This document shows positions 5,870 through 13,209 of a stretch of DNA of 33,175 nt, piece by piece (the first letter of the stretch is position 1; each line of letters opens with the position of its first letter). The notes beneath the pieces were generated by a model. The model did no database searches. It was not told the DNA's origin and saw nothing but the letters and a program-made list of their open reading frames with translations. Both the position numbers and the translations under genes were made by a program. The stretch comes from a bacterium (lineage in GTDB: Bacteria > Patescibacteriota > Minisyncoccia > Phycocordibacterales > UBA12079), in contig DAOWHH010000014.1 of NCBI GenBank assembly GCA_030641525.1, positions 1 to 33,175 of the forward strand, given 5' to 3'.

Positions 5870-6103
5870 CTACCGAAAGAGTTCAGTTGAAACTACTGGT
5901 ATAATTTGATCTTCTCTAACAGGATCACCAGAACCTTGTTCAAGAACTTTTTCTATTCTAATGAAAACAATTCCTTTTCGACAACTGGATACTACTGCTT
6001 CAGCTAGAACATGATAACAACCCTTTCCTGCATCATAAATGACCTCATCATCTTTTCTTAAGAAAGGCATTACCTCTGGTATTAGTTGTTTTAATTCAGA
6101 CAT
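5870..6103 (-). CDS. Hypothetical small protein (77 aa) with strong SD
   Basis: Upstream reads aaagaggagttATG. Compact ORF MSELKQLIPEVMPFLRKDDEVIYDAGKGCYHVLAEAVVSSCRKGIVFIRIEKVLEQGSG.... Confidence 0.65.
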   Translation of the reverse strand: MSELKQLIPEVMPFLRKDDEVIYDAGKGCYHVLAEAVVSSCRKGIVFIRIEKVLEQGSGDPVREDQIIPVVSTELFR

Positions 6104-6224
6104 AACTCCTCTTTATTTTGTTTTATTAATTTAAATGAAGAACTACAATAAAGTAGAATGTAGATTACTATATATAATAATTAATATCAAGAATAATAGA
6201 GATGTTGACTTTTCACAATATATT

Positions 6225-6262
6225 CCATCATTCGAACCCTAGGTTGTCTACCTAAGGAGAAA
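6225..6262 (-). pseudogene. Degraded tRNA 3'-half remnant
   Basis: Reverse strand tctccttaggtagacaacctagggttcgaatgatgg parallels the anticodon-arm/T-arm part of the adjacent tRNA-Pro copies. Confidence 0.5.
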
Positions 6263-6303
6263 ATATTATATGTTATCTTATTATAAAATTAATTGATTAC
6301 TAG

Positions 6304-6378
6304 TCGGGATGCCGGGATTCGAACCCGGAGTCGTCTGTCTAAGGCAGAAAAGTCAGTCCTAATACCACACTCTAATTA
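6304..6378 (-). pseudogene. Degenerate tRNA-Pro-like pseudogene
   Basis: T-arm and 3' acceptor strand identical to the neighbouring tRNA-Pro (ccgggttcgaatcccggcatcccga), but the 5' half (agagtgtggtattagg...) mispairs and the anticodon loop lacks U33. Confidence 0.65.
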
Positions 6379-6387
6379 ACTATATTG

Positions 6388-6460
6388 TCGGGATGCCGGG
6401 ATTCGAACCCGGAGTCGTCCGCTCCCAAAGCGGAAATGTTAGCCGTTACACCACACCCCG
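6388..6460 (-). tRNA. tRNA-Pro (TGG)
   Basis: Reverse strand cggggtgtggtgtaacggctaacatttccgcttTGGgagcggacgactccgggttcgaatcccggcatcccg-a. Full cloverleaf, no encoded CCA. Confidence 0.93.
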
Positions 6461-6616
6461 AAATTATTTATTTGTTTATGTACTTTTGTGGGTCGTCTGC
6501 CTTAGGCAGAAAAACATTAGCCGTTACACCACACCCCGAAATTATTTATTTGTTTATGTACTTTTGTGGGTCGTCTGCCTTAGGCAGAAAAACATTAGTC
6601 GTTACACCACACCCCG
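6461..6616 (-). repeat. Two tandem 78-bp repeats each containing a tRNA-Pro 5' half
   Basis: 6461-6538 and 6539-6616 differ by one base (attagccg vs attagtcg). Each holds cggggtgtggtgtaacggctaat-gtttttctgcctaaggcagacga plus AT-rich spacer. Confidence 0.95.
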
Positions 6617-6620
6617 ATAT

Positions 6621-6875
6621 TTAATTGTTTATATATTGTTTTAATATCGTATTCTTTATCCATTCTCTTCCCTTTCCTCCTTTTAACATTTTCTCTCTTA
6701 ATATAGCCTGACTTCGTGTATTATATGATTCTTTATATATTATTTCAAATACACCTTTGTTTTTTGTATACTTTTCTCTTCCAGAATTATGTCGCTCTAA
6801 TCTATCATCCAAATTTTTTGTCTGCCCAATATAAGTTTGATTTTTATTATTTTTTAAAATATAAACATAATACAT
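6621..6875 (-). CDS. Single-domain GIY-YIG endonuclease
   Basis: MYYVYILKNNKNQTYIGQTKNLDDRLERHNSGREKYTKNKGVFEIIYKESYNTRSQAILREKMLKGGKGREWIKNTILK: YVYIL..YIGQT..L..R...H...Y motif order. Confidence 0.93.
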   Translation of the reverse strand: MYYVYILKNNKNQTYIGQTKNLDDRLERHNSGREKYTKNKGVFEIIYKESYNTRSQAILREKMLKGGKGREWIKNTILKQYINN

Positions 6876-6883
6876 CCTAGTTA

Positions 6884-6930
6884 GTCGTCTGCCTTAGGCA
6901 GAAAAACATTAGCCGTTACACCACACCCCG
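6884..6930 (-). pseudogene. Third tRNA-Pro 5'-half fragment
   Basis: cggggtgtggtgtaacggctaatgtttttctgcctaaggcagacgac on the reverse strand, same as the halves in the tandem repeat. Confidence 0.85.
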
Positions 6931-6931
6931 A

Positions 6932-6979
6932 TTATTTTAACAATGTATTTTTTATCCATTCTATCATATTCTTAACCAA
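6932..6979 (-). pseudogene. C-terminal remnant of a second GIY-YIG endonuclease
   Basis: Reverse strand encodes LVKNMIEWIKNTLLK*, matching the C-terminus GREWIKNTILK of the adjacent intact ORF. Confidence 0.65.
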
Positions 6980-6992
6980 TTTAAAATTAATT

Positions 6993-7415
6993 TTAAATAA
7001 TAATATCTTCAAAATATTTAACTTCAAATTTTTTGTCCTTTATATTTAAAAAGATAATTATAATATCAAATTGCCATTCTCTTTCATCAGAAATTTCTTT
7101 TTCCATTAAATAAGTCTGAAAAACTCTAGATAATCTCTGTAATTTCCAATGATGTATATTATCACTTACTAGATAATTATCCATTATTCCATTAATATTC
7201 CACCATCTATCACCACAGGAGACACTTTTTACCTCTATAAAATGAATTCTTTGATTTTTTTTAGGAAAAAAGGATTTTTTCTGAGCAATAATATCAATCT
7301 CACCCCATTTTTTTAAATAATTTCTATCGATAATTTTAAAGTCATTTTTCTTCAAAAATTTACAAGCCCTATCTTCACCCAAATTCCCTATTTTTCTTTT
7401 TTCACTTATTCCCAT
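6993..7415 (-). CDS. YraN-like (UPF0102) predicted endonuclease
   Basis: GNLGEDRACKFLKKNDFKIIDRNYLKKWGEIDIIAQKK...IHFIEVKSV: nuclease core (GEIDII...FVEVK). Confidence 0.85.
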   Translation of the reverse strand: MGISEKRKIGNLGEDRACKFLKKNDFKIIDRNYLKKWGEIDIIAQKKSFFPKKNQRIHFIEVKSVSCGDRWWNINGIMDNYLVSDNIHHWKLQRLSRVFQTYLMEKEISDEREWQFDIIIIFLNIKDKKFEVKYFEDIII

Positions 7416-7729
7416 CTTTTTATTACTTTAAATTAGAAAACAGAATCCTACTACGAACTTTCTAAACAGTAAATCTCTCGTAACAAGTTCTATTTTATAA
7501 TTCAAAGTCTTATTATGATAACATATATATAAAATATATGTTTTTCCTATAAAAAAAGTAGGAACAACACAAGATATGTTTCTTAGTAACATATATTTTC
7601 TATCTATCAACTAGTCAAAGAGTTTCTAAAAAGATAATGTCTTTTTATCATAATATACTTATATTAAGCCATATTTAAAGATAATTTGACACCTACAAAA
7701 AGACAAATCACTTGTTTATAAAGGTCAAG

Positions 7730-11353: not shown

Positions 11354-11896
11354 ATGAAACAAATATTAATATTAGCAATTGTATTTACATTTAATTCTTT
11401 TTTTATTACTCCTGTTATGGCACAAGAGGATGTTGAGATTGTTCCGACATTATATACAGATGAAAGTTCAGATCCTACTAATGTTGCTGCTATTGGGTCA
11501 TGGTGGTCAAGAACAAAAAATAATTTCAGTTCTATATTTAGACGAAGTCCAGTAAAAACCGTGCAGAAAGCCCCACCAGCAGCACCAGCACCACAAATAA
11601 GAACTACCTCCACTAGCGGTGGGTCATCATGGTGGTCAAGAACAAAAATTAATCTCAGTTCTATGTTTAAACAAATAAAAATAGCCCAACCAGCACCAAC
11701 AGCACCACAAATAACAACAACAAAATCTGTTTCATTATGGGGAAAAGTGGTTAATGTTATAAAAAGAGAACCAAAAGCACCTGCTGGAGTTGAGTCTCGA
11801 TTAAAAACAACCAGTAAAGATAAAAATTTAGAAAGATTAGAAAATATTGAAATAAAAGATATAGAATTAGAAAGATTAGAAGAAACTATAATATAA
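11354..11896 (+). CDS. Secreted/anchored hypothetical protein with internal repeats
   Basis: Signal peptide MKQILILAIVFTFNSFFITPVMAQ; duplicated SWWSRTKxNxSSxF...APxAPQIxTT units. Confidence 0.75.
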   Translation: MKQILILAIVFTFNSFFITPVMAQEDVEIVPTLYTDESSDPTNVAAIGSWWSRTKNNFSSIFRRSPVKTVQKAPPAAPAPQIRTTSTSGGSSWWSRTKINLSSMFKQIKIAQPAPTAPQITTTKSVSLWGKVVNVIKREPKAPAGVESRLKTTSKDKNLERLENIEIKDIELERLEETII

Positions 11897-12141: not shown

Positions 12142-13209
12142 ATGAAACAAATATTAATATTAGCAATTGTATTTACATTTAATTCTTTTTTTATTACTCC
12201 TGTTATGGCACAAGAGGATGTTGAGATTGTTCCGACATTATATGCAGATGAAAGTTCAGAGCCTACTCTTATAGCTGAGGAACCAGCCGAGATTGAAGAA
12301 ATAAAAACTCCTTCTAATCTTGGATTGTGGTGGATAAGCGTAAAAGAAACTCTTAGTTTAGCAACCACTTTAAATCCAGAAAAAAGAGTAGAAAAAGCAT
12401 TACTTTTTGCTGAGCAAAGAATGGAATTAGCTGAAGAATTTGCCCAAAATGCAGACACACCAGAACAACAAATAAGAGCTGAAAAAATGATAGAAAAAGC
12501 AACAACATTTATAGAAAAAGCTGAGGGAGAGAAAGAACTTGTAAAAGAAGAAACAAAAACTCATTTAGAGGAAGTTAAAGCTAGAAAAGAACGACATGAA
12601 GCTCAAATTGAGACATACCAAGAAGAAAAAGTAGAATTGATAGAAAGGATAAAAGCAGGAGATGAAATAGCTAAAGAAGAATTAAAAAATCTAAATACAG
12701 AAAGAAGAGAAGAAGCTGAAGAAGTAAAACAGGAAATTAAGGCTAAATTAGAAATAAGAGCTGAAGAGGGTGACGAAGGAGCTATAGAACGATTAGAAAA
12801 TATAGAAGAAAAGAAAGTTGAATTACAAACAATCAGGGAAGAAAAAGAAGTAGTAGAAACTAGTAAAAGAGATATTGAAAAAATATATTTTTCAAAAGAA
12901 ATAGAGATTGTAAATAAAAATCTTAAACCAGTTGAAGGAAGTAAAGAATCATTATGTTCTAATGCAGGTGGAGAATGGCAAAAATTCTCAAATACCTGTG
13001 CTAATACCTGTTCTTTTGAGAGAAATAAAGAAAATTCTATATGTGCCGAAGTCATTACAGAAAGCTGTAATTGTGGAACAGATAAATGTTGGAACGGAAA
13101 AAGTTGTGAAGGAATTCAAACCAATGAACAAAAAGGGGATATATTACAAAATACCATAAGAACAAATATCCAAAACATTAAAGAGGTAATACAAAAAAAC
13201 GAATATTAA
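12142..13209 (+). CDS. Secreted coiled-coil protein with C-terminal Cys-rich domain
   Basis: Same signal peptide as 11354; long Glu/Lys coiled coil; C-terminal 8-Cys segment LCSNAGGEWQKFSNTCANTCSFERNKENSICAEVITESCNCGTDKCWNGKSCEGI. Confidence 0.8.
   Translation: MKQILILAIVFTFNSFFITPVMAQEDVEIVPTLYADESSEPTLIAEEPAEIEEIKTPSNLGLWWISVKETLSLATTLNPEKRVEKALLFAEQRMELAEEFAQNADTPEQQIRAEKMIEKATTFIEKAEGEKELVKEETKTHLEEVKARKERHEAQIETYQEEKVELIERIKAGDEIAKEELKNLNTERREEAEEVKQEIKAKLEIRAEEGDEGAIERLENIEEKKVELQTIREEKEVVETSKRDIEKIYFSKEIEIVNKNLKPVEGSKESLCSNAGGEWQKFSNTCANTCSFERNKENSICAEVITESCNCGTDKCWNGKSCEGIQTNEQKGDILQNTIRTNIQNIKEVIQKNEY

Follow-up and report, generated by a model that had tools for sequence, protein, structure and literature searches.

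The free-standing GIY-YIG homing genes of the phage T4 seg type are small and intergenic, form target-specific lineages, and are patchily present. A phage SegB GIY-YIG gene is located next to tRNA genes (PMC13096335). The unit at a tRNA-Pro gene described here, from a 33,175 nt stretch of the genome of a Minisyncoccia bacterium (contig DAOWHH010000014.1, hereafter the window), shares these features. It differs in that its protein has nothing beyond a GIY-YIG core of approximately 80 aa, with no extra DNA-binding domain, in being found on bacterial chromosomes, and in that a partial copy of the target, with a palindrome in place of one arm, accompanies a regenerated intact target. It is doubtful that insertion of the tRNA-Pro unit destroys its site, as that of a homing gene does, since an intact tRNA persists beside the insertion.

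A survey of the rRNA genes of CPR bacteria found the GIY-YIG proteins there within insertions that belong to neither the group I nor the group II introns, and placed most insertions, all types taken together, at stem-loop tops or bases (PMC11270868). These insertions have in common with the tRNA-Pro unit the bacterial group, the GIY-YIG ORF, and the stem-loop sites, a placement that fits the mechanism proposed below. They target rRNA genes, whereas the unit targets a tRNA gene, and the words tRNA and palindrome are absent from the main text of that report, which therefore describes neither tRNA copies nor palindromes. No group I or group II intron core was found at the tRNA-Pro locus either; a search of Rfam with positions 6000-7500 at E values up to 1 returned tRNA and a tmRNA fragment only.

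The mobile ORFs and double-hairpin elements of fungal mitochondria combine an endonuclease ORF with hairpins and regenerate the end of the host gene, as the tRNA-Pro unit does. These are organellar, and we know of none with a tRNA half in which an arm has been replaced. The tRNA-associated elements that carry a tyrosine integrase also copy a portion of a tRNA gene and leave the gene restored, although they use the tRNA 3' end and an integrase, while the tRNA-Pro unit uses the 5' half and a nuclease and is approximately 0.3 kb. There is no integrase inside the unit, where the nuclease is the single ORF, and the nearest is 6.5 kb away. Terminal inverted repeats, as in DNA transposons, were not seen at the tRNA-Pro units. 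The REP and MITE repeats are similar in being short GC-rich palindromes, dispersed as the palindrome is within the order; they lack the fixed position in tRNA copies beside a nuclease gene.

Organization of the tRNA-Pro locus

The three tRNA-Pro 5' halves in the window belong to a mobile unit made up, in order, of a tRNA 5' copy with a palindrome, a GIY-YIG nuclease gene, and an intact tRNA (Table 1). In all three halves the 17-nt anticodon arm TCCGCTTTGGGAGCGGA has given way to the 15-bp perfect palindrome TCTGCCTAAGGCAGA. As DNA this has 7-bp arms and one central base, and as RNA it is predicted by folding to form 6 bp with a 3-nt loop. The acceptor 5' strand and D arm of halves no. 1 and 3 are identical to those of the intact tRNA-Pro over 22/22 nt, and those of no. 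2 over 21/22 nt; the 3' strand of the D-stem is altered, from AACAT to AATGT. Past the palindrome each half has the variable-loop sequence CGAC, after which unrelated sequence begins. A preliminary description, made from the window alone, had reported the replaced arm, the nearly unchanged acceptor and D-arm sequences, the constant end at the variable loop, and the presence of palindrome variants in the degenerate tRNA and the shorter remnant beyond it, and in all of this it was accurate. The interval it gave, 6461-6616, contains two of the halves; the third is outside it, beyond the GIY-YIG ORF.

Table 1. Features of the tRNA-Pro locus, in the order read on the reverse strand
Feature	Positions	Strand	Evidence
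3'-end remnant of an earlier GIY-YIG gene (KLVKNMIEWIKNTLLK*)	6932-6982	-	translation against GIY-YIG C-terminus GREWIKNTILK; repeat D4
tRNA-Pro 5' half no. 1, palindrome at 6888-6902; left end of the complete unit	6883-6930	-	
GIY-YIG nuclease ORF, 84 aa, beginning right behind half no. 1	6621-6875	-	Pfam PF01541, E 2.8e-16
tRNA-Pro 5' half no. 2, palindrome at 6574-6588	6569-6616	-	
Spacer, 3' part like the end of the GIY-YIG gene	6539-6568	-	local alignment (AT-rich, weak); repeat D2
tRNA-Pro 5' half no. 3, palindrome at 6496-6510	6491-6538	-	repeats
Spacer, copy 2	6461-6490	-	repeat D2
Intact tRNA-Pro(UGG)	6387-6460	-	ARAGORN; Rfam RF00005, 60.1 bits
Decayed full-length tRNA-Pro copy, imperfect palindrome TCTGCCTTAGACAGA at 6334-6348	6304-6378	-	repeat D3
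Older 3' remnant of another tRNA-Pro copy: anticodon-arm region and T arm, further decayed form of the palindrome	6225-6262	-	repeat D5

Immediately ahead of half no. 1 there is a GIY-YIG gene fragment (...EWIKNTLLK*) that is absent from the preliminary description. The resemblance of the 3' part of the spacer to the end of the GIY-YIG gene suggests that a deletion probably gave rise to the 78-bp unit. A change of anticodon, giving for example a suppressor tRNA, was rejected because a usable 7-nt loop is lacking in the 15-nt arm and there is no 3' half. A phage origin was likewise rejected, there being no DNA match and just two weak protein matches.

Occupied and empty sites in related genomes

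The same unit is present in relatives of the window's genome (G000). In a congener (G002) there is one half, with TCCGCCTAAGGCGGA, then the GIY-YIG gene, then an intact tRNA-Pro. Here too a GIY-YIG gene end is found ahead of the half, within an exact 58-nt repeat, the copies of which are 298 bp apart. In a second genus of the family, one genome (G008) has a half with TCTGCCTGAGGCAGA, the GIY-YIG gene, and an intact tRNA-Pro, next to the UPF0102 gene that also adjoins the unit in the window. In another genome of that genus (G009) the same left flank runs directly into an intact tRNA-Pro, the tRNA in G008 being shifted by 308 bp relative to it. Occupied and empty alleles, as expected of a homing gene, are therefore found at one site with a shared left flank. 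The arrangement extends to a MAG of the Planctomycetota (L106), where TCCGCCTGAGGCGGA stands in place of the 17-nt anticodon arm CTGCGTTCGGGACGCAG of a tRNA-Pro(CGG), with a GIY-YIG ORF and then an intact tRNA behind it.

Within the family, the sequence of each 5' half agrees with the tRNA of its own genome (CGGGGTGTGG, CGGGATGTAG, CGGAGTGTAG), as is expected of a target duplication, and the palindrome stem varies by compensated changes only. Upstream of the displaced half in G008 there is a promoter-like TTGAAA-16-TAAGAT, making co-transcription from the tRNA promoter plausible.

That degenerate copies adjoin an intact tRNA gene might suggest that a tandem array of tRNA genes has simply decayed, that the tRNA genes are split, or that the assembly is at fault. 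With the same unit in independent assemblies of other species, an intact tRNA always present, and a partner 3' half nowhere, such an origin can be virtually discounted; moreover, random decay yields no perfect palindromes at arm boundaries. It had also been proposed that the altered copies are nuclease-resistant decoys, conferring immunity, with the natural arm cut by the nuclease and the copy with the palindrome spared. The natural arm sequence is indeed gone from the altered copy. It persists, however, in the adjoining intact tRNA that every element regenerates, so that the altered copy protects nothing, and the successive units in the window's genome and its congener suggest that the regenerated tRNA was struck again. 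A decoy is therefore very unlikely. The broken GIY-YIG end before the half in both of these genomes may be the trace expected of a second insertion into the regenerated tRNA.

The GIY-YIG nuclease

The protein encoded in the window has kept the conserved residues of the active site, and Y5, Y15, G17, R25, and E61 are invariant in the alignment. By sequence, its closest relatives of solved structure in the PDB are UPF0213 and the structure-specific SLX1, which places it as a predicted single-domain member of the GIY-YIG superfamily in the UPF0213/SLX1-like branch. The gene is intact and under purifying selection, with a dN of 0.17 and a dS of 1.1-1.7 against the congener (dN/dS approximately 0.1-0.15). 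Between the window's genome and G008 the GIY-YIG proteins are 71% identical and the neighbouring UPF0102 proteins 52%, a difference that may reflect nothing but unequal rates of evolution.

The palindrome

Within the window, 9 strand-hits to the palindrome occur at 2 or fewer mismatches, against 0.16 expected. Its exact 13-mer is found in the whole 584-kb genome at the three tRNA halves only. As all three copies are tRNA-linked, the random distribution that would have counted against the preliminary description is ruled out in this genome. A 7-bp perfect stem arises in approximately 5 of 1000 shuffles of one half, and among the GIY-YIG relatives the longest perfect stem ahead of the ORF has a median of 7 bp, against 4.8 in shuffles. 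A broader motif, TCNGCCYNRGGCNGA, has 20 occurrences in the 36 kb beside GIY-YIG ORFs, and the other 491 kb of these loci contain 5, making it approximately 50 times denser near the ORFs. Positions 3 and 13 were left free in the search pattern, which did not demand complementarity, and each of the 13 distinct versions near the ORFs has complementary bases there, all four pair types being represented. This density and these compensated pairs favour a candidate hairpin or symmetric binding site.

The halves form a stable hairpin and one of them is just upstream of the ORF start, as might be expected of stable regulatory small RNAs. Folding of the whole half is no better than that of shuffled sequences (z -0.7 and 0.0), and a role of this kind is most improbable.

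Besides the tRNA linkage seen in the window's genome, this 15-mer has copies dispersed across the order as a hairpin. Of 397 genomes of the order, 64 contain the narrower motif TCNGCCTRAGGCNGA, with up to 10 copies in each, and many of the copies are terminator stems without a GIY-YIG gene or tRNA; dispersed copies like those of REP or MITE repeats are thus found in these genomes and are absent from the window's own. In the latter, copies of tRNA-Ile and tRNA-Thr contain unrelated AT-rich palindromes with no adjoining GIY-YIG gene. These findings suggest that the palindrome may be taken from a shared pool of hairpins. They could also be taken to mean that it is an independent REP- or terminator-like repeat that enters any hairpin loop, is tolerated in a redundant tRNA copy, and is unrelated to the nuclease. 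Against this, the 15-mer is confined to the tRNA halves in the window's genome, the position and sequence of the palindrome are conserved within target-specific lineages (Pro, Gln, Ser/Cys) of different host families, and its density near the ORFs far exceeds that in the rest of the same loci, so that independence from the nuclease is unlikely. The constant position of the palindrome within element lineages argues that it is retained for some reason. Its sequence differs between these lineages, and therefore no one sequence is required. The palindrome is possibly a recognition or cleavage site of the nuclease, as had been put forward for the window.

GIY-YIG genes at tRNA genes in other bacteria

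The link between palindrome, tRNA half, and GIY-YIG gene is strongly supported by its recurrence in congeners, in another phylum, and at many other tRNAs. A total of 110 loci was assembled, 80 from public genomes of many phyla, picked by protein similarity alone, and 30 from a search of the order. A tRNA or tmRNA gene on the same strand is present within 250 nt of 71 of these GIY-YIG relatives, and one has a tRNA on the opposite strand, upstream; the background is 0.03-0.07 tRNA per 500 bp. Across the ORF from the tRNA, a partial copy of the same tRNA (at least 14 matched nt) is found in 40 of the 71, compared to 34 of 568 comparisons (6%) with tRNAs of other isotypes. The loci are phylogenetically non-independent and include at least two duplicates (L051 is L125, and L104 is the G002 locus), so these counts give strength rather than exact probabilities.

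Usually a hairpin replaces or lengthens one arm of the tRNA copy. With arms assigned by eye, the anticodon arm is altered in Pro, Glu, Tyr, Val, Leu, and Cys cases, the D arm in Ser, Cys, Gln, Asn, His, Thr, and Bacteroidota Pro cases, and the T arm in some Ser and Tyr cases. Some of the tRNA-adjacent GIY-YIG genes among the 71 loci have no tRNA copy or no clear hairpin. The nuclease lineages cluster by target (Gln, Ser/Cys, Lys, Bacteroidota Pro, and tmRNA) across host families, in a tree that has few columns and many unresolved forks.

The tRNA-targeting GIY-YIG elements are apparently an undescribed class, seen across several bacterial phyla. No report tying GIY-YIG genes to palindrome-marked tRNA copies was found in the open-access journal literature. 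As a variation on free-standing nuclease elements, the class has a fair chance of being new in mechanism.

A proposed homing-like mechanism

The halves are likely to be the target-duplication ends of a minimal mobile element, homing-like in its behaviour, that has a single-domain GIY-YIG nuclease as its sole gene and the palindrome as a cis-acting end. In it the original tRNA-Pro 5' end stands on the left, with the nuclease gene behind it, and a complete, regenerated tRNA stands on the right, where it would probably share a transcript that starts at the original tRNA promoter. During or after insertion, a perfect palindrome would take the place of one hairpin arm in the displaced copy, which in the window is the anticodon arm. 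Recurring as it does at one arm in related lineages, the palindrome may best be read as the cis-acting end of the element. The arms of a tRNA are natural inverted repeats in DNA, and the most likely route would be homing-like repair after the nuclease cuts the tRNA gene at such a hairpin-forming arm. The 5' and 3' parts of the tRNA would serve as homology arms, and repair would copy in the palindrome and the nuclease gene and restore the tRNA. A cut at an arm and repair of this kind would account for the order seen and for the intact tRNA. The arrangement, its recurrence, the lineages specific to a target, the pair of occupied and empty sites, and the purifying selection on the nuclease are direct results; that hairpins are cut, that homology guides the repair, and that the palindrome has a part in that step is what we infer. 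Classical homing elements avoid leaving a cleavable target, and the regenerated tRNA would remain cleavable, which counts against a homing-like model.

It is also conceivable, within the same mobile-element interpretation, that the palindrome does no more than interrupt the direct repeat formed by the two tRNA copies, preventing recombinational loss of the nuclease gene, and disable the broken copy as a tRNA. Contiguous identity of the two copies is indeed down to approximately 8-30 nt in most loci. Any random sequence would suffice for such an interruption, however, and the perfect compensated palindromes would be unexplained, making this rather unlikely as the whole of its role.

Going beyond a cis-acting end in a homing-like element, the GIY-YIG genes could, as a tentative proposal that we hold at somewhat less than even chances, belong to a widespread class of minimal mobile elements with a structure-specific nuclease. 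Such nucleases would seek the hairpin DNA of tRNA, tmRNA, and rRNA genes, mark the displaced copy with a palindrome of their own, and regenerate the host gene, essential RNA genes providing them with safe landing sites and promoters.

Other candidate elements and repeats

Several further arrangements were observed. A second GIY-YIG group (L047, L050, L054, L056-L060, L064, L068, and L073) has terminal inverted repeats, several of the form TCCCGTTAGAGATA...TATCTCTAACGGGA. In several of its members the ORF end touches the ATGA that starts the next gene, and this looks like a 4-bp target duplication. Another GIY-YIG clade (L127, L148, L151, L152, L156, L162, L177, and L183) is found downstream of the 3' ends of tRNA or tmRNA genes, with repeats such as TTCGCTCGCCGAAGCGGCGAGC in between, and is apparently a 3'-end-targeting relative.

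The only other GIY-YIG gene of the window's genome (L004, C13:21274-24486) is upstream of the tmRNA, from which two long perfect hairpins separate it, and a relative of it (L070) is likewise located at tmRNA. Downstream of tRNA-Ile and tRNA-Thr in this genome, the copies with AT-rich palindromes (L078, ATGAAAGACATGCTTTCAT; L076, TTGAAAGTGTCTAGCTTTCAA) have these between the D arm and the anticodon. Upstream of the intact tRNA-Glu and tRNA-Leu genes there are 5' copies interrupted by hairpin-rich inserts of approximately 100 nt (L086 and L100). Repeats of approximately 150-200 nt are present downstream of several tRNAs (L082, L084, L086, and L088); these start with an inverted T-arm-like sequence, finish with 15-19 nt that repeat the tRNA 3' end, and are probably another tRNA-linked element. 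Elsewhere in the window, the adjacent ORFs at 11354-11896 and 12142-13209 are near-identical over their first 30-odd residues (MKQILILAIVFTFNSFFITPVMAQEDVEIVPTLY) and divergent after.

Significance

GIY-YIG genes of the UPF0213 type are frequent in bacteria with small genomes and are mostly annotated just as nucleases. If many of them are tRNA parasites with a fixed anatomy, the broken tRNA copies and pseudo-tRNAs in small genomes would be explained, and a poorly characterised family would gain a function. They would also provide a natural example of a possibly structure-guided nuclease that strikes essential RNA genes without killing them.
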